DNA from: Parcubacteria group bacterium GW2011_GWD2_38_11
GTDB lineage: Bacteria; Patescibacteriota; Minisyncoccia; Moranbacterales; GWC2-37-73
DNA: 34,457 nucleotides
Direction of reading: 5' to 3'
Assembly: GCA_000992325.1 (NCBI GenBank)
Contig: LBTZ01000006.1
Location: forward strand, 1 to 34,457
Shown one piece after another: positions 1,555-30,299 of the stretch (within the stretch, counting starts at the first letter, position 1; every line of letters begins with the position of its first letter). The notes beneath the pieces are model-generated. The model was given only the letters and a program-made list of their open reading frames with translations. It did not search any database and was not told where the DNA came from. Position numbers and translations under genes: made by a program.

Positions 1555-1649
1555 ATGGATTTTGCAAGAATATATATTTTTTTACTTGCCTTACATTCGC
1601 TGTTGCTCATACGGAAGCCGCAAAAAAACAATATTCTTGCAAAATCCAT
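1555..1649. repeat. Palindromic element copy 1: 19-bp arms, conserved core
   Basis: ATGGATTTTGCAAGAATAT (1555-1573) is the exact reverse complement of ATATTCTTGCAAAATCCAT (1631-1649). The core acttgccttacattcgctgttgctcatacggaagccgcaaaaaaacaatatt is shared with 7431-7521. Confidence 0.95.
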
Positions 1650-1665
1650 TTTATTTTTCCGAGCG

Positions 1666-2202
1666 TTAGATTTTATTGGGTTTAATCGTCACGGCTGATT
1701 TGATGGCAGCTTTTTCCTCCTCAGTTAAGGTATATTTCTCTGATTCTCCTTTTGTGATAGGTTTTGAATAAATACGAGTGCCTTCTCTGGTATGCAGTGA
1801 TGAAATGGTTATTCCTGAGTCTTTGCCATCCAAAAGGGCAATTGCAAAGCTTTGGTCACCGCCAATGTCCTTAAATGGGTTAAACCGAATGATTCCGACT
1901 TTATGAATACTGCGTTGGGAAAGGTTGTGAATTTTGTTGGAAATTTCGAAAAGTTCCTGAATTTCTTTGTCTATAGCGGAAATTTCCTCAGTATGAGCTA
2001 ATAAAATTGATTCTAAATCGACAGCTTTTTTTCCTGAAAAAAGAATCTCGAGGTTTTTTTGAGTAGATCTTAATTTTAGCATTGTCCAAATACCAAAAAT
2101 AAGGCTTATTACAGCCAAAAAAATTCCAGAAATTGCAATGTAAATTGGGAGTTGAGCACTTGATATCATAAAATAAACATATTTAATAGATACGTTGAGC
2201 AT
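1666..2202 (-). CDS. DUF4446-like protein with N-terminal TM segment (start may be 2169)
   Basis: 178-aa ORF; KVGIIRFNPFKDIGGDQSFAIALLDGKDSGITISSLHTREGTRIYSKPI matches the DUF4446 signature as I recall it. Confidence 0.8.
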   Translation of the reverse strand: MLNVSIKYVYFMISSAQLPIYIAISGIFLAVISLIFGIWTMLKLRSTQKNLEILFSGKKAVDLESILLAHTEEISAIDKEIQELFEISNKIHNLSQRSIHKVGIIRFNPFKDIGGDQSFAIALLDGKDSGITISSLHTREGTRIYSKPITKGESEKYTLTEEEKAAIKSAVTIKPNKI

Positions 2203-2364
2203 CGTAGCATTATTTTTGCCCTGTGTAAAGAAAAAACGCTTGCGGAGAGGGGGAGAGATTCCTTCTCGCTCCGACTAGAAGTCTTGGGCGTTTGCATTCA
2301 GAATGCTCGTATTCCTCGCATCCTACTCGCGCCCTTCGAATCTTTTTATTATTTGAAAATTTTG

Positions 2365-2434
2365 CGGAGAGGGGGAGATTCGAACTCCCGGTAGGGTTGC
2401 CCCTACTTCACTTTACCAGCTCTGGCACCTCTCC
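2365..2434 (-). tRNA. tRNA-Ser-like gene lacking an anticodon arm (possible pseudo-tRNA or minimal tRNA)
   Basis: Minus strand GGAGAGGTGCCAGAGCTGGTAAAGTGAAGTAGGGGCAACCCTACCGGGAGTTCGAATCTCCCCCTCTCCG. 7/7 acceptor pairs, 5-bp T stem with TTCGAAT loop, Ser-type long variable arm GTAGGG-GCAA-CCCTAC, discriminator G. No 5-bp/7-nt anticodon hairpin fits between the D region and the variable arm. Confidence 0.7.
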
Positions 2435-2456
2435 ATAATATAAACATACAACAAAC

Positions 2457-2539
2457 AACCAATAACTGACAACAAACAAAAGCTAAGAAAAGGTAAGTCC
2501 AGGTTTGGTTGTGTGTTGCTTGTTGTCAGTGGCTGGTTA
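2457..2539. repeat. Inverted repeat of 'AACTGACAACAA' word family
   Basis: AACCAATAACTGACAACAAACAA versus reverse complement of TTGCTTGTTGTCAGTGGCTGGTT; 19 of 23 positions match. Confidence 0.75.
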
Positions 2540-2607
2540 ATTTCCATTTTGTTATTTTATGTTTTTGTTGTAAACTATATGTAGTCAATTAGCAAAATAT
2601 TTTTCTT

Positions 2608-3159
2608 ATGGAAGAAACTCAAAATCAAGTTGGAAAATTTTTGGATCCAGATGCAATCATCGCACAGCTTGATGTTGTTCGTGGAGGTGTGGTGGTTGAC
2701 TTTGGCTGTGGGCCTGGATATTTTTCAATTCCATTTGCCAAGGCTGTTGGAAAAGATGGGCGAGTGTATTCGCTTGATGTTTTGCCTCAAGCTCTGGAGA
2801 CTGTTACGGGGAAAGCTAAAAATTCTGGAGTTGCAAATATCATAACTAAGCGGGTAAATTTGGAAAAAGAAGGCGGAACAAAACTTGAGGAAAATTCTGC
2901 TGATTGGGTTGTCTTGAAAGATGTTTTGTTTCAAAATAAGAAAAAAGAAATTATTATTGCTGAGGCATATCGCGTGCTTAAAAGCGGTGGAAGGGTTATT
3001 GCAATTGAATGGAATCAAAAAGACTCAGGAGTTGGTCCAGCTGCAGATATTCGCGTTCCTCAAATTGCTTTGGAAAAAATGTTTGGTGATCAAAAATTCA
3101 TCGTGGAAAAAAATATCGAAGCTGGTGATTTTCATTATGCATTTGTTGCAGTAAAATAG
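2608..3159 (+). CDS. Class I SAM-dependent methyltransferase (UbiE-like fold)
   Basis: 183 aa; motif I VVDFGCGPGYFSIPFAKAVG, then VYSLDVLPQAL and later RVLKSGGRVIAIEW. Confidence 0.85.
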   Translation: MEETQNQVGKFLDPDAIIAQLDVVRGGVVVDFGCGPGYFSIPFAKAVGKDGRVYSLDVLPQALETVTGKAKNSGVANIITKRVNLEKEGGTKLEENSADWVVLKDVLFQNKKKEIIIAEAYRVLKSGGRVIAIEWNQKDSGVGPAADIRVPQIALEKMFGDQKFIVEKNIEAGDFHYAFVAVK

Positions 3160-3209
3160 GTCTACGAAATTACAAAAATATACAAAAGTACAAAATTACA
3201 AAAAATACT

Positions 3210-4763
3210 ATGCATATGAAAAAAATAAAAATAAATACTTGTTGTCATCACTCGCTCGGAAATAAATCCGCCTTTAGGCCAGATTTATTTCGCTCGCTTC
3301 GTTCGACAATAAAAACACTTATTAAGGGTAAGACTAGATTTTTCCTGGCATTTCTTGCGGTTGCGATAATACCGATTTTTTCAGGTTGTGGGACATCTTC
3401 GACGGGCGGTTATATTGTTAATCTTGAAATCTGGGGAACTTTTGATGATTCGCTGGTTTATTCTGGAATTATTGATCAATACAAAAAAATAAATCCATAT
3501 GTTGGTGAAATAAAATATCGAAAATTTTCTCAAGACTCATATCAGAAAGAACTTCTTGATGCATTGGCTTCAGGTCAAGGACCGGATATTTTTTTGATAG
3601 GAAATGGATGGTTGCCTTCGTTTGAAAACAAGTTGGAGCCCGCACCAGCACCATTGGTGAGTGAGCAAGATATGAAAAACAATTTTCCAGATGTTGTGGC
3701 AGGTGATTTTATGAGCGGTGGAAAAGCCTATGCTGTTCCTCTTAGCATAAATTCAATGCAGCTTTATTATAATCGCGATATGTTTAATGCTGCCGGGATT
3801 ACTGCGCCACCCAAGACCTGGATGGAATTTCAAGCTGATGTGCAAAAGATGACCAGACTTAATGCAAATGGAAATTTTGATCAATCAGGCGCTGCCATCG
3901 GAACCGGAGTTAACATAAATAGAGCCTCTGATTTGTTGAGTCTTTTGATGTTGCAAAACGGAGTTGAATTTCCAACGAAAAAAGGAATGTTGGCTAAAAT
4001 GGATGAAGGTGTGGTTGGCAAGGACGGCAATGTCTTTCAAGCAGGAGAGCAAGCCTTGGGATTTTATACTCAATTCGCGAGACTAAGCACAGCTTCCAAC
4101 ACGATTAATCAAGCTTATACTTGGAACAACAGGCAACATTATTCAGTGGATGCTTTTGCGGAAGGATCCGTGGCTATGATGTTTAATTACTCTTGGCAGA
4201 TGGCGGAAATAAGAAATAAGAATCCAAAATTGAATTTTTCAGTTGCGCAGGTTCCACAAATAAATGTTGACAAGCCTGTAACGTATGCAAATTATTGGGG
4301 CTTTGCAGTTGCGCGCAATAAAGTTGCTTCAGTTTCGAATGTGGGGGGGTCTCCTGCTGCTGCACCAGTTTCAAACGAAGTGAGAACTCACGAAGCTTGG
4401 CAGTTCCTTCGATTTCTTACGCTTAAAAATTCCGGCACAATCACTTTGTATAATGCAACCACAAAAAATAGTAAAGATTTTCCAATCAGTTTTGATCCAG
4501 CAATGGATTATTTGAAAAGAACGCAGCAGCCTGCAGCGCGTAGGGACATAATTGAGTCTCAAAAAACAGATTCTAACCTAGGACCGTTTGCCTCGGGTAA
4601 TCTTATTGCCAAGCATTGGTATCAAAGTGATCCTGATGCAGTAGATAAAATTTTTTCCGATATGATAGAATCAGTTAATAGAGGTGATGTAACTTTACGC
4701 GAAGCATTGAGTTTGGCAAAAAATAAAATCAATTATTTGTCAGGTGGGAGCACGACGCGATAA
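3210..4763 (+). CDS. Extracellular solute-binding lipoprotein (ABC sugar-binding type)
   Basis: Hydrophobic segment then FSGC lipobox-like motif; LEIWGTFDDSLVYSGIIDQYKKINP, GQGPDIFLIGNGWLPSF, AVPLSINSMQLYYNRDMFNAAGI are typical of sugar-binding SBPs. Confidence 0.85.
   Translation: MHMKKIKINTCCHHSLGNKSAFRPDLFRSLRSTIKTLIKGKTRFFLAFLAVAIIPIFSGCGTSSTGGYIVNLEIWGTFDDSLVYSGIIDQYKKINPYVGEIKYRKFSQDSYQKELLDALASGQGPDIFLIGNGWLPSFENKLEPAPAPLVSEQDMKNNFPDVVAGDFMSGGKAYAVPLSINSMQLYYNRDMFNAAGITAPPKTWMEFQADVQKMTRLNANGNFDQSGAAIGTGVNINRASDLLSLLMLQNGVEFPTKKGMLAKMDEGVVGKDGNVFQAGEQALGFYTQFARLSTASNTINQAYTWNNRQHYSVDAFAEGSVAMMFNYSWQMAEIRNKNPKLNFSVAQVPQINVDKPVTYANYWGFAVARNKVASVSNVGGSPAAAPVSNEVRTHEAWQFLRFLTLKNSGTITLYNATTKNSKDFPISFDPAMDYLKRTQQPAARRDIIESQKTDSNLGPFASGNLIAKHWYQSDPDAVDKIFSDMIESVNRGDVTLREALSLAKNKINYLSGGSTTR
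3259..3291. repeat. Short palindrome inside the N-terminal coding region of the SBP
   Basis: GAAATAAATC (3259-3268) / GATTTATTTC (3282-3291) around CGCCTTTAGGCCA, flanked by CGCTCG / CGCTCG. Confidence 0.7.
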
Positions 4764-4788
4764 GAATATTATAGTAATTACAAAAAGT

Positions 4789-5226
4789 ATGAAATTTGAT
4801 AAAACCTTTTTCGTTTCATTGTTTCTGATTTCGATTTTTGGAACAATGCTATTTGGTGTTGGCAATGCCAATGCAGCTGTGATTACTTGCGGCACAGGTC
4901 AGGATATGTGTACTCTTTGTGATTTGATTGCTGGAATGAATAGAATTATTCAATATTTGATGAAGCTTGCAATTGGAGTTGCACTGCTAGCTATGACTAT
5001 TGGCGGTGTGATGTATGTTGTTTCTGCTGGAGATAAGGGACTTGCTGATAAAGCCAAGGGAGCCATAACAAATGCAGTTGTTGGTTTTGCAATTATTTTT
5101 GCGGGTTGGCTTATTATAAATACGACGATAACTTATATAGGTTCGTATACCAATTTAGGAATTCAGGGAGTTGGTAGTTGGGGAAATTTTGAATGTACTC
5201 GCGTGGAGCCTATTTTGAATAAATAA
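4789..5226 (+). CDS. VirB2/TrbC-like pilin, signal peptide plus two TM segments
   Basis: Start taken at MKFDKTFFVSL (ORF opens at 4744). LIAGMNRIIQYLMKLAIGVALLAMTIGGVMYVVSAGDKGLADKAKGAITNAVVGFAIIFAGWLI. Confidence 0.8.
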   Translation: MKFDKTFFVSLFLISIFGTMLFGVGNANAAVITCGTGQDMCTLCDLIAGMNRIIQYLMKLAIGVALLAMTIGGVMYVVSAGDKGLADKAKGAITNAVVGFAIIFAGWLIINTTITYIGSYTNLGIQGVGSWGNFECTRVEPILNK

Positions 5227-5257
5227 AATTGAAGAATTATTTTTTAAAACAAAAAAG

Positions 5258-6094
5258 ATGAATATAGAAAAAATGCCAGCCAAAGGCTGGTCCGCCTTTG
5301 GCGGAAAAAAGAAAAATGTTTTTTTGTTGCCACTTTTAGTTTTTGGATTATTTTTAACTCTAGGGGTTCAAGGTGCATCTGCTGATTTGTGTACAGATTA
5401 TAATAAAAATTATAAATGTACGGACACAACAACCTTAACATTAACTACTGGCTGCGTGGCTAATAAGTGCCTTGGAGCGAATGCAAGCAATGTCAATGTA
5501 AAATGTTGTCCAATGGATGCTCCTGTAAAAGGTAATGGGGCACTTGTTCAGACGAATGGTTCGAATAACAATGTTGCTGGTCCAACTAATTTTATAAATC
5601 CACTTAGATTTACAAACGTGGAAGGATTTTTGGGCGGAATTATGGTAGCAATTCAAAAGATTATTGTGGTGTTAGCTTTGGTGTTTATTATGATTGGTGC
5701 GGTGATGATTTTGACTTCGGCTGGAAATTCAGGAATGGTTGAAAAAGGAAAGGGCGCAATTACAATGGCTCTGGTTGGTTTGGCACTGGGAGTTGCGGCG
5801 CCGTCACTTTTGAAAGAACTTGCTAATATTATTGGTTGGGGAGGAGCTTCGTCGGTAGCTGGCGCACTGACACTTTCACAAATTGCTGTTAACGTTTTGA
5901 ATTTCCTTTTGGGAACGATGGGTATTGTGGCGTTGGTGATGTTGGTGATTGGGGCGATTATGTATTTAACTTCAGCTGGTGATGAAGATAGAATTGATAA
6001 GGGAAAGGAAATATTTAAATATTCTTTGCTTGGGGTTTTGATAGCGATGTCTTCAATGGTGCTGGTAACGCAGATTGCGAAATTTTTTCAATAA
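5258..6094 (+). CDS. Two-domain VirB2/TrbC-like pilin protein
   Basis: Two successive units: IMVAIQKIIVVLALVFIMIGAVMILTSAGNSGMVEKGKGAITMALVG and LLGTMGIVALVMLVIGAIMYLTSAGDEDRIDKGKEIFKYSLLG. Confidence 0.8.
   Translation: MNIEKMPAKGWSAFGGKKKNVFLLPLLVFGLFLTLGVQGASADLCTDYNKNYKCTDTTTLTLTTGCVANKCLGANASNVNVKCCPMDAPVKGNGALVQTNGSNNNVAGPTNFINPLRFTNVEGFLGGIMVAIQKIIVVLALVFIMIGAVMILTSAGNSGMVEKGKGAITMALVGLALGVAAPSLLKELANIIGWGGASSVAGALTLSQIAVNVLNFLLGTMGIVALVMLVIGAIMYLTSAGDEDRIDKGKEIFKYSLLGVLIAMSSMVLVTQIAKFFQ
5276..5305. repeat. Double palindrome encoding PAKGWSAFGG at the protein N-terminus
   Basis: ccagccaaaggctgg followed by tccgcctttggcgga; relative of the perfect palindrome at 27669-27698. Confidence 0.9.
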
Positions 6095-6104
6095 ATAGGA
6101 TGGT

Positions 6105-6228
6105 TGTCATTCCGGACTTGCCGTGCCCGCCTTTGGAGGGATCCGGAATCCAGTCATATGCACAATCTAGGCTCCGTTCTGGATTTACCCTCAAGGGGCA
6201 TCGAGACCACGCCTACGCGGGAATGACA
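6105..6228. repeat. TGTCATTCC...GGAATGACA inverted-repeat element
   Basis: TGTCATTCCGGA...GGAATCCAG ... CTGGATT...CTACGCGGGAATGACA. Confidence 0.9.
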
Positions 6229-6256
6229 AAAAATTAAAAAGAATAAAAAAACAAAA

Positions 6257-6709
6257 ATGCTAATCAATGTTCCACAATATATAGATGTTGAAGATAAGAT
6301 TGCTGGACCGCTGACTGCTAAGCAGCTTGGTTGGATTATTGGGCTTGGCATTATTTTGCTTGTTTTGTGGAATATGGTTCCTGCTCCAGTATTTTTTATT
6401 CTTGGAATTCCTTTGACAATTTTGTTTGTGGCTCTGGCTTTTTATCGACCATATGGACAGCCACTGGGGAGTTTTGTTATTTTTGGAATTATGTATTTTT
6501 TCAGACCCAAGGTTTATATTTGGAAAAGGACACCAGAAAGAATTGTTAACGCAGTTGTAAAGACGCAAACTGCGACAGCAGTTGTTGCTGACAAGCATAT
6601 TTCATCTCAATCATTAAGGGATTTGGCACAATTGTTGGATAGTGAAGGAATGACATCAAATACGGAGCTTGAAAAAATGTTAAAGCAAGTACCGACAAAA
6701 AAATATTAA
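6257..6709 (+). CDS. PrgI-family T4SS membrane protein
   Basis: 150 aa; INVPQYIDVEDKIAGPLTAKQLGWIIGLGIILLVLW...FRPKVYIWKRTPE. Confidence 0.8.
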   Translation: MLINVPQYIDVEDKIAGPLTAKQLGWIIGLGIILLVLWNMVPAPVFFILGIPLTILFVALAFYRPYGQPLGSFVIFGIMYFFRPKVYIWKRTPERIVNAVVKTQTATAVVADKHISSQSLRDLAQLLDSEGMTSNTELEKMLKQVPTKKY

Positions 6710-6729
6710 ATATAAGGAGAAATCATTCT

Positions 6730-7419
6730 ATGGAATCATTGCATTCAAATAATTTAACAGGTGGAGCAACTGGAGGACTTAGCACTCAAAAATATGTTGA
6801 CGTGGAGGAAGTGCGCGACGGAGTTATTATTCTCAAAAATGGATCGCTGAGAGCTGTGCTTTTGGTTTCTTCAATAAATTTTGATCTAAAGGCAACAGAA
6901 GAACAAGACTCTATCATTAGTCAATACCAAAATTTTCTTAACTCTTTGGATTTTCCGATGCAGGTGATTGTGAGTTCAAGAAAATTAAACATAAATCCAT
7001 ATTTGAATTATTTGAAAAAAAAGGAGACACAACTTACCAATGAACTTCTTAGTTTGCAATTGGCGGAATATCAAAACTTTATAAAAAATTTGGCCGATGT
7101 TTCTAATATTATGTCTAAGTTTTTTTATGTAGTAGTGCCATTTGCCCCAATCGAAAGTGTTAAAAGTGGATTGATCGATCGTCTTTTCGGAGCAACGAGT
7201 TCGCAGATGGCAGTTGCCAAGAGAAGAGAACTTTTTGATACATATAAAAATCAGCTTTGGCAGCGTGTGGATCATATCAGTGCAGGTCTTTCTGGAACAG
7301 GTGTAAAAGTTACTCCACTTAAAACTGAAGAACTGATAGAACTTTTGTATAATTCATACAATCCGTCAATACATAACAATTCTATTATTAAAGATATCGA
7401 TAAAGTAGAATTAAGATAA
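6730..7419 (+). CDS. VirB4/TraC N-terminal-domain-like protein, separate ORF
   Basis: 229 aa; YVDVEEVRDGVIILKNGSLRAVLLVSSINFDLKATEEQDSIISQYQNFLNSLDFPMQVIVSSRKLNINPYL; lies between PrgI and VirB4. Confidence 0.75.
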   Translation: MESLHSNNLTGGATGGLSTQKYVDVEEVRDGVIILKNGSLRAVLLVSSINFDLKATEEQDSIISQYQNFLNSLDFPMQVIVSSRKLNINPYLNYLKKKETQLTNELLSLQLAEYQNFIKNLADVSNIMSKFFYVVVPFAPIESVKSGLIDRLFGATSSQMAVAKRRELFDTYKNQLWQRVDHISAGLSGTGVKVTPLKTEELIELLYNSYNPSIHNNSIIKDIDKVELR

Positions 7420-7430
7420 GATAGGAGTTA

Positions 7431-7521
7431 AAATTTCAGGCAAATATTGTTTTTTTTACTTGCCTTACATTCGCTGCTGCTCATACGGAAGCCGCAAAAA
7501 AACAATATTTGCCTGAAATTT
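7431..7521. repeat. Palindromic element copy 2: 26-bp perfect arms, conserved core
   Basis: AAATTTCAGGCAAATATTGTTTTTTT (7431-7456) = reverse complement of AAAAAAACAATATTTGCCTGAAATTT (7496-7521); core TACTTGCCTTACATTCGCTGCTGCTCATACGGAAGCCGC. Confidence 0.97.
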
Positions 7522-7551
7522 ATAAATTATAAACACTATTGTGTTTTAAAT

Positions 7552-7608
7552 TTCGTCGCTCGCCCAAGATGAAAGCAAGCTTTCGCCTTGCGTGCTCGCT
7601 AGAAATTA
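7552..7608. repeat. GC-rich palindromic repeat directly upstream of VirB4
   Basis: AAATTTCgtcgctcgcccaagatgaaagcaagctttcgccttgcgtgctcgctaGAAATT; AT-rich complementary ends and internal GCAAGCTTTCG/AGATGAAAGC symmetry. Makes the 26-aa upstream ORF extension doubtful. Confidence 0.6.
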
Positions 7609-11836: not shown

Positions 11837-11881
11837 AAGTATTTTGATTGTAGAATTAAAGACATATAATAATTTTAGGAC

Positions 11882-12003
11882 TTACGCATTTTCTCAACAA
11901 TTTCTTTTTTGGCACGCTTTTGGATAAATACTCATTATCCAAAAGCTCAAAAAGCCGCTCTCGCCAGCTATTGGCCAAAAAAGAAATGTTTCGAAATGCG
12001 TAA
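11882..12003. repeat. Nested imperfect palindrome
   Basis: Outer TTACGCATTT..ATTTCTTTTTTGGC versus GCCAAAAAAGAAAT..AAATGCGTAA; inner CTTTTGGATAA/TTATCCAAAAG. Confidence 0.85.
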
Positions 12004-12063
12004 CTACTTAATTTTTTAAAATTCATTATGCCTCATTAATTCTATGTTAGTAATTTTTCATTA

Positions 12064-24441: not shown

Positions 24442-26247
24442 ATGGATAAGAAAAATCTTATTATTTTAGCTGCGGTTCCAATGACGGTGCCTGTTTCTGA
24501 AAATGAAACTGAGGCGCAGTTTTTGGAACGTTGGAGAAAGGTTGATGCGCTGCCAGCTGAAAAAAAAGAAATATTATCTTCCGATATAACAATTGGGAAA
24601 ATTGAGGACGTTGCAAAACGTTTTCGTCTTACATATGGAGAAGCTTGTGATATTTCTCGCTTAGTGCGGTCAGTTGTATTTGGAGAAATAAATGTTTCTC
24701 AAGTTGATTCATATTTGAAACAAAAAATTCAGCATATTGAACAAGCAGATAGGGATAATGTTAAAAATATTATAGTTGAGATATTGTCGCAGCAGCCTAT
24801 TTTGTCAATGGAGGCAATGGAGACGGAAAGTAGAAAAAAAGTTCAGCTCTCACTTTCTGAAGCACTTTTGAAATATCCAAAAGTTGGCGAGCAGAACATC
24901 ACAACTGATCAGATCAAACTTAAATATTTTCCAACGCTAGTAAGGCCATCCGTCAAAAATTGGATCACTGATTTTCATGATGCAATGGGCGCAGGAAAGC
25001 ATAGCCCGATTGATCGTGGAAACTTTTTGTTCCACAGCGAAAATGGAAAAAAACTTTCATCAACTGACAGGCAAAAACTTGGCACGATTTTGAAATCTCT
25101 GGATGAACAAACATTGTTGACGATTGATGGTGAAACTCAAATTATTGTTTTTGAAAATGTGCAACAGGAAAATACCCGTGTCATTCCGGACTCGATCCGG
25201 AATCCAGAGCAGAGCAGGAACCTGGATTCCCGTTTTCACGGGAATGACAATATTGATATGAAGGTTCGTGATTTGGATGAAACAAATACAGAAAGAGCGC
25301 CGAGAGAAAGCAGAGCAGATGTTAACTTGAAACAAGATCAACGCCTGACAAGTTTTAATAGTCATGATGTTTTTGGTGATTTATCTTCTGTATCTGAGCT
25401 GGAAGAAAGTCAGAGCAAAAATTTTCAGGAAAAGATGCAAGGTTTTTTTGCGAATAATAAAAATAAAAATGTTGAAAATATATCAGTTGTGGAAAACAAA
25501 CAACCTGCAGAAATTCAATCACAACAAAGAGATGCAAGCGGCAATCTTTCATATGCTCCGAATTTTTCCGCCAAAGCTGTTGGACAAATCGCAAACACAA
25601 TTTCCAGCGAAAAGGCGAAGGGCGGAATTGTTAAAAACTTTTTTAGTAGTGCAATTGCTCCCGCCCCGATTAAAATTGATGATAAAAAAGTTGAAGATGA
25701 AGAAAAAAACAATTTTTTTCAAATACCACAGTCAAAACCTCCCATCGGAAGTGAATCATATCACGCGCAGTCTCCGCAGAATCCAAACAAAGACAGTATA
25801 GAAAAAAATCAGGATATCGAGAAAGTTGCAAATGTAAACAATACTCAAACCTCTCTGCCCTCTGGGCACCAGCCTCGCGTCGACGAGCAATTGTCTTTGC
25901 GAGTCGAGGCGGGTCTCTCCTCATCTGAGGAGAGAAAGATAATGAATGAATCTTCAGAAGACCAAGATCGCGATTCAATGAGTGACGAGTTGCTGTATAA
26001 AATGCTGCAAGAAAAAAAGATCAAACAGGGTGCTGCTGATGCTGATTTGTCTTTCGGTAGTGTGAAATTTTCTTCGCCACAACAACTTCCTGCAGAGCAA
26101 GGATCAAAGCCAGCTCAAATCCAGACTCCTCAGCCTCAGCGATCCCCATTTCACATCACTCCATCGGATTATGCAAGTGGCAAAAAGATTGAGACTAAAA
26201 ATGAAACAATGCCGAAGATTACAGGGAATGTTGTTGATCTTAGATAA
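24442..26247 (+). CDS. Uncharacterised 601-aa T4SS-cluster protein with repeat-derived segments
   Basis: Uninterrupted ORF after the VirB6-like gene; helical N-terminus, low-complexity C-terminal half. Confidence 0.75.
   Translation: MDKKNLIILAAVPMTVPVSENETEAQFLERWRKVDALPAEKKEILSSDITIGKIEDVAKRFRLTYGEACDISRLVRSVVFGEINVSQVDSYLKQKIQHIEQADRDNVKNIIVEILSQQPILSMEAMETESRKKVQLSLSEALLKYPKVGEQNITTDQIKLKYFPTLVRPSVKNWITDFHDAMGAGKHSPIDRGNFLFHSENGKKLSSTDRQKLGTILKSLDEQTLLTIDGETQIIVFENVQQENTRVIPDSIRNPEQSRNLDSRFHGNDNIDMKVRDLDETNTERAPRESRADVNLKQDQRLTSFNSHDVFGDLSSVSELEESQSKNFQEKMQGFFANNKNKNVENISVVENKQPAEIQSQQRDASGNLSYAPNFSAKAVGQIANTISSEKAKGGIVKNFFSSAIAPAPIKIDDKKVEDEEKNNFFQIPQSKPPIGSESYHAQSPQNPNKDSIEKNQDIEKVANVNNTQTSLPSGHQPRVDEQLSLRVEAGLSSSEERKIMNESSEDQDRDSMSDELLYKMLQEKKIKQGAADADLSFGSVKFSSPQQLPAEQGSKPAQIQTPQPQRSPFHITPSDYASGKKIETKNETMPKITGNVVDLR
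25179..25249. repeat. TGTCATTCC...GGAATGACA element inside a CDS, in frame
   Basis: TGTCATTCCGGACTCGATCCGGAATCCAG...CCTGGATTCCCGTTTTCACGGGAATGACA; translates RVIPDSIRNPEQSRNLDSRFHGNDN. Confidence 0.95.
25852..25937. repeat. CCTCGCGTCGACGAGCAA...TTGCGAGTCGAGGCGGG palindrome in CDS, in frame
   Basis: Shares CCTCGCGTCGACGAGCAA...GTCTTTGCGAGTCGAGGCGGGTCTC with 28290-28345. Confidence 0.93.
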
Positions 26248-26957: not shown

Positions 26958-26962
26958 CCGCT

Positions 26963-27093
26963 TGTCATTCCCATGAAAATGGGAATCCAGGTTTTGGAGA
27001 GTTGACAATAAAAAATACAAATGCGAAATACGGGCCTGGATTCCCGCCCGCCTGCAACGATTGCATTTCGGGCAGGCCTCCGCGGGAATGACA
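26963..27093. repeat. TGTCATTCC...GGAATGACA element with extra nested palindrome
   Basis: TGTCATTCCCATGAAAATGGGAATCCAGG ... CCTGGATTCCCGCCCGCCTGCAACGATTGCATTTCGGGCAGGCCTCCGCGGGAATGACA. Confidence 0.93.
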
Positions 27094-29888: not shown

Positions 29889-30288
29889 TGTCATTCCCGT
29901 GAAAACGGGAATCCAGGTTACGTTGTTAATCTAGTGCTCTATGTCTCAAGAAAAATTTTACTATGTTTACATTTTAGCAAGTCATCAAAACGGAACGCTG
30001 TATATAGGAGTAACTAGCAATTTAATAAAAAGAAGTTGGGAACATAAAAATAAAATAGTTGAAGGATTCACAAAAGAGTACGGTGTTGATAAGCTTGTTT
30101 ACTATGAGACTACTAATGACATAAACTCGGCATTACTAAGAGAGAAACAATTAAAAAAGTGGAACAGGCAATGGAAATTGGAATTGATTGAAAAAGAAAA
30201 TCCAAACTGGGCGGATTTAGCAATGGAATATTATAAAAAGGAATGTGATATTAAGTAGGGCTGGATTCCCGTTTTCACGGGAATGACA
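29889..30288. mobile_element. ~400-bp element: 28-bp perfect inverted repeats flanking a GIY-YIG ORF
   Basis: TGTCATTCCCGTGAAAACGGGAATCCAG (29889-29916) is the exact reverse complement of CTGGATTCCCGTTTTCACGGGAATGACA (30261-30288). Confidence 0.8.
29941..30258 (+). CDS. Single-domain GIY-YIG nuclease
   Basis: YYVYILASHQNGTLYIGVTSNLIKRSWEHKNKIVEGFTKEYGVDKLVYYETTNDINSALLREKQLKKWNRQWKLELIE. Confidence 0.94.
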   Translation: MSQEKFYYVYILASHQNGTLYIGVTSNLIKRSWEHKNKIVEGFTKEYGVDKLVYYETTNDINSALLREKQLKKWNRQWKLELIEKENPNWADLAMEYYKKECDIK

Positions 30289-30299
30289 ATGTTTTACGT

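Follow-up and report, generated by a model that had tools for sequence, protein, structure and literature searches.

Two segments of a small bacterial contig raise the question of how a dispersed repeat can keep its middle and change its ends while each end pairs perfectly with its own partner. The contig, referred to here as the window (the whole stretch of DNA analyzed, 34,457 nucleotides), belongs to a genome of 0.94 Mb (G000), in which a preliminary description had reported two palindromic elements with a common core and arms of 19 and 26 bp. Repeat finding returned the same coordinates, core and arms for both copies, and the features concerned are as follows.

1555-1649, minus strand: A-type hairpin element, copy 1; the conserved GCGGCTTCC strand is the minus strand
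1555-1573, unstranded: left arm of copy 1, 19 of 19 positions paired with 1631-1649
1584-1621, minus strand: conserved irregular core of copy 1, GCGGCTTCCGTATGAGCAACAGCGAATGTAAGGCAAGT on the minus strand
1631-1649, unstranded: right arm of copy 1, partner of 1555-1573
7431-7521, minus strand: A-type hairpin element, copy 2
7431-7456, unstranded: left arm of copy 2, 26 of 26 positions paired with 7496-7521; its distal part is like the arm of L162, an element of the same genome with another core
7458-7495, minus strand: conserved irregular core of copy 2
7496-7521, unstranded: right arm of copy 2, partner of 7431-7456

According to the repeat finder, the arms of copy 1 can be lengthened by 9 bp to 28 nt at 89% complementarity, 19 of these positions forming the perfect part, and the direct repeat common to both copies extends over 67 nt with 94% identity (1569-1635 versus 7443-7509). 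Because this shared stretch reaches into the arms, the innermost ~14 bases of each arm are part of the repeat. Both arm lengths are far above chance, since 60 dinucleotide-shuffled versions of the window contained perfect inverted repeats of no more than 14 bp (loop of at most 60).

Other short repeats are present in the window. Directly after copy 2, a different hairpin, AAATTTCGTCGCTCGCC...GCTCGCTAGAAATT, occupies 7549-7605 and is bordered on both sides by the imperfect repeat AAATTATAAA.ACTAT. A near-perfect short repeat, CTGGATTCCCGTTTTCACGGGAATGACA, occurs in four copies and in both orientations (25219-25250, 26962-26993, 29889-29920 and 30261-30289).

Members and hosts of the hairpin family

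The two window sequences are copies of a small, dispersed, hairpin-forming repeat family, apparently undescribed, in tiny uncultured Moranbacteria-type bacteria. An element of this family, termed the A family here, measures ~80-115 bp and consists of an irregular conserved core, which reads GCGGCUUCCGYAUGA ... GAAUGWAAGGCAAG on one strand, a T-run/A-run that closes the core, and an outer stem of 18-26 bp. The window's genome contains two instances of the exact core, and G016, of the same genus, contains one; a further instance, changed at the end, comes from G006, which belongs to another genus. The G006 copy has a perfect 23-bp arm pair unlike the window arms in sequence, and only a single arm is left in the G016 copy (L007, ~1212-1273). 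Hairpin scans yielded a longer-core copy in G013. Covariance models built on 5 copies (R2) and, with better performance, on 20 rows (R3) gave further A matches: eight in G090, which belongs to another family, two in G013, and one each in G018, G009 and G127, with a differing apical stem in the G009 and G018 copies. Overall, the covariance searches place ~17 A copies in G000, G006, G009, G013, G016, G018, G090 and G127, and sister cores of the same architecture in G000, G008, G011, G013, G014, G025 and G129. Samples of 384 genomes of the class and 380 of the phylum contained no covariance match outside the order of Patescibacteria to which the window belongs, and no exact core was found in viral contigs.

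The preliminary description knew of no family with this design, and we also found none in Rfam or in the literature searched. Rfam 15 gave no match at cut-off in the window, and the related loci produced just sub-threshold matches to microRNA precursors, as expected for long hairpins. The class itself is already known: it is that of dispersed hairpin or MITE-like repeats with a constrained fold, such as mitochondrial double-hairpin elements and yeast GC clusters (Paquin et al. 2000, cited in PMC4478555 and PMC7218506). Like the A family, these are dispersed mobile hairpins whose fold is apparently constrained; in GC42, however, changes are reported to concentrate in the loops, whereas the bacterial A family conserves its irregular core and varies in the stem. 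Bacterial MITEs and palindromic intergenic repeats (reviewed in PMC10969869 and PMC2229807) resemble the A family in being short, noncoding, dispersed, intergenic and hairpin-forming. Unlike in bacterial MITEs, neither a TIR nor a target duplication is seen in the window copies, the orthologous spacers being too diverged to define a junction, and the A family has a center that is more conserved than its ends and stems that covary strongly between copies.

Divergence and covariation of the stems

The arms had been regarded as unrelated between the two copies. They do differ strongly, but they are diverged rather than unrelated. In gapped alignments, the window arms at 1555 and 7431 align above shuffles (z ~3, p ~0.01), and the arm at 7431, AAATTTCAGGCAAATATTG, is almost identical to the arm of the different-core element L162 in the same genome, AAATTTCATGCAAATATTG (z 7.8). 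Positional information across the arms of 19 copies amounts to 6.98 bits, a value reached by none of 5000 shuffles (1.89 bits), and the underlying consensus, a weak one of approximately TTTC..GCRAATATTG followed by a T-run, is still significant when the five innermost bases are left aside (p 0.0004). Arms that are random between copies are ruled out by this positional information and by the gapped alignments. Ungapped arm identity between copies is just 43%, and 30% within G090, where four copies combine identical 37-nt cores with very different arms and where the distal arms of some copies, taken by themselves, are not significantly similar. The copies of G025, G129 and G014 share both arms and cores, and mostly have AGGACTTACGC-like ends outside.

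Comparison of the copies shows the arms to be descendants of a common arm, which diverged strongly as the two stem halves changed in concert. The alternative named in the preliminary description, that the two copies are merely diverged, is right in part, in that the arms share an ancestral consensus; its expectation that arms pair within a locus and not between loci was borne out in nearly all copies. A conserved middle with variable self-complementary arms is how a structured hairpin looks when just two copies are compared.

Pairing was counted in the outer stems of 18 copies without gaps and without model fitting: 386 of 401 pairs are Watson-Crick, 13 are G.T or A.C, and 2 are other combinations. 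The R2-based alignment has 97.4% standard pairs, a figure that leans toward the model to which this alignment was fitted, whereas the 401-pair count is independent of the model. Two-sided changes affect 13 of the 24 pairs in that alignment (63 cells), a degree of covariation that was reached in none of 500 shuffles; controls with slid partners gave at most 7 cells. The irregular core has covarying pairs of its own. In this hairpin family the stem diverges fast yet stays paired, with strong covariation, and among the options offered earlier, selection on hairpin structure gains support from the covariation and the Watson-Crick count insofar as both speak for maintenance of the hairpin.

The remaining wobbles carry information on the strand, which was set by the orientation of the core. 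G.T on the GCGGCTTCC (GCGGC) strand accounts for 12 of the 13 wobbles in the gap-free count (binomial p 0.003), these counts being small and partly shared by descent; counted per copy, the bias is 8:1 (p 0.04), and the fitted alignment, which leans toward its model here as well, contains 55 G.T against 5 A.C. Relative to co-directional genes, A elements are oriented at random (5 same, 6 opposite), so the wobble bias tracks the element and not the mRNA. Since neither a double-stranded palindrome nor symmetric template switching would tell the strands apart, neither should yield such a bias, and the strand-biased wobbles speak for upkeep on a single folded strand rather than for a symmetric DNA process by itself.

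Genomic sites and sister elements

A copies are intergenic or overlap doubtful reading frames alone, and most are located 10-75 bp past a stop codon. Those of the window are absent from the orthologous spacers of 18 relatives in the same family; these spacers are diverged, and several hold other hairpins. Being intergenic and missing at the orthologous sites of close relatives, the A copies look mobile. When parts of the G013 and G015 genomes were compared, the G015 site orthologous to a G013 copy was found to hold a wB-type element, the GCGTAA end of which is retained in G013. One element of the latter type lies in the window itself.

11877-12008, plus strand: wB-type MITE of 132 bp with ends AGGACTTACGC and GCGTAACTACT, a cloverleaf-like interior and an inner stem at 11900-11987

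The wB ends are AGGACTTACGC and GCGTAASTTCT, and wB-type sister copies provide clean filled/empty pairs with target duplications of ~4 bp (TTCA, AAAT and TTTT). AGRASTTACGC-like ends are carried by the wB copies and by most sister copies of G011, G014, G025 and G129. In the A set, a TIR outside the hairpin scored only for G013a (p 0.007), the window copies giving p 0.10 and 0.89. An autonomous insertion sequence with AGGACTTACGC ends was rejected, because the scanned parts of G000, G013, G015 and other genomes revealed no transposase flanked by matching ends; end pairs 1.6-1.9 kb apart enclose ordinary genes. The A copies may be tied to the TIR-bearing MITEs through shared arms and architecture, most A copies having no recognizable TIRs.

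The larger B family consists of a cloverleaf-like core and an outer stem, with 22 of 30 pairs covarying, and B-type relatives give about 13-30 matches per genome in three genera. Compared by eye, the A-type and B-type cores are similar on the same strand. In G000, G013 and G015, 61 B-type copies were surveyed; where both neighbors are co-directional, 32 run along the genes and 10 against them, a bias that the A family does not share. One orthologous B element of G013 and G015 (L231:1744-1855 and L203:1169-1280) is nearly unchanged over ~110 bp with flanks that differ by ~20%, which suggests constraint or conversion. Repeats are also nested within repeats, as in the case of CCCCGTCAAATTGTTCACAG...GCTGGATTTGACGGGG, which lies inside the stem-loop of wB-type MITEs, and the window's genome contains many ~102-bp elements that may be flanked promoters or a further MITE, with inverted conserved ends (ACCCCGTTAGA...TCTAACGGGGT), co-varying inner ends and differing AT-rich middles.

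L207:18038-18097, and by alignment L225 ~2436-2568 and L229 ~7360-7529: nested CCCCGTCAAATTGTTCACAG...GCTGGATTTGACGGGG element
L017:870-971, L017:7080-7181, L018:89-192, L019:11750-11858 and L020:4366-4468: ~102-bp elements
L021:89-191, L025:5133-5237, L029:7136-7237, L032:9962-10063 and L033:11262-11365: further ~102-bp elements

Explanations for the paired stems

Several known systems share features with the A family. Integron attC sites (PMC2727003) are likewise strand-specific folded hairpins whose structure is kept with little conservation of the stem sequence; they were rejected as an identity for the A elements because the R boxes at the hairpin base are lacking, no GTTRRRY or RYYYAAC box being present within 60 bp of the center at 29 loci, and because orientation to genes is not fixed. 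REP/BIME and IS200/IS605-type elements are also intergenic hairpins, and strand-specific transposition would fit the wobble bias; a REPtron or IS200-IS605 origin was rejected since the Y1 (HUH) transposase (PF01797) was not found in the window's genome or in most of the copy-richest genomes, with no match in G000 and G014-G017 and with G090 not among the genomes that have one. Intrinsic terminators were excluded by the T-run, which lies between the 5' arm and the core and not 3' of the stem; the bases past the 3' arm are ATAAATTATA in copy 2 (plus strand) and AATTCGAATAA in copy 1 (minus strand). The possibility that the core had inserted into terminator palindromes already present was also excluded, given that native loopless palindromes are A-rich at the 5' outer end and T-rich at the 3' outer end, the opposite of what the arms show.

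We consider the A family to be, with a probability of roughly 0.55, a set of dispersed MITE-like hairpins whose arms derive from a common arm and change together through upkeep on one folded strand. The GCGGC strand, folded as single-stranded DNA or RNA, would be the form on which this upkeep acts, most simply if only copies that fold are propagated, and the paired changes may come from template switching at the palindrome (PMC8794818). Sister elements are carried inside TIR-bearing MITEs when they move, so elements of this MITE type may have given rise to the bare window copies by reduction to the hairpin. The identical G090 cores with very different arms stand against this explanation, in that they fit simple compensatory drift only if the core is strictly constrained.

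An unlikely but substantial alternative is neutral homogenization, in which the arms of an old repeat are kept identical by polymerase template switching (quasipalindrome correction) with no selection on folding. Template switching makes perfect stems and restores pairing in a single event (PMC8794818), and it homogenizes the arms of inverted repeats (PMC8604942); the scarcity of transversion mismatches (2 of 401 pairs) and the large arm differences even among identical cores would follow. Such a process is strand-symmetric, however, and should not yield a 12:1 excess of G.T over A.C on one strand, and it leaves the conserved irregular core, with its own covarying pairs, unexplained. Hairpins created by template switching (PMC8794818) similarly share two-sided changes and few mismatched intermediates with the A family but do not account for a dispersed conserved core and a strand bias. 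More tentatively still, and in our opinion doubtfully, the A elements could be a mobile hairpin of Patescibacteria of which one folded strand, single-stranded DNA or RNA, propagates and is read via the irregular internal core; this would occur without a Y1 transposase or an integron integrase and would leave the stem sequence unconstrained except for its pairing.

It is improbable that the A element is an RNA hairpin used by the host, such as a 3' UTR stabilizer, a terminator or a protein-binding site, and kept wherever it landed. Its usual position downstream of stop codons and the strong RNA folding of the stem (z -7 to -9) agree with such a role, but orientation to the genes is random and the wobbles track the element strand rather than the transcribed one, the position of the T-run beside the loop does not suit an intrinsic terminator, and relatives lack copies at the orthologous sites. 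In an option raised in the preliminary description, the arms would be made anew at every locus when flanking host DNA is copied in inverse orientation during insertion. This might explain the G090 copies and the broken copy with a single arm, but it is very improbable given an arm consensus that spans genera and sister families and given that neither window arm is visible at the orthologous empty sites, whose spacers have diverged; template switching, which that description had proposed for flank copying, finds no support in this role but may act as a process that homogenizes arms.

The dispersed MITE-like hairpins of the A family offer a clean natural example of DNA hairpin arms that change together around a fixed loop region. 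With this family, selection acting on a folded strand can be told apart from correction by template switching, and the measurement that discriminates is the strand bias of the wobbles. Very small genomes of Patescibacteria carry layered hairpin repeats, which shape their short intergenic regions.
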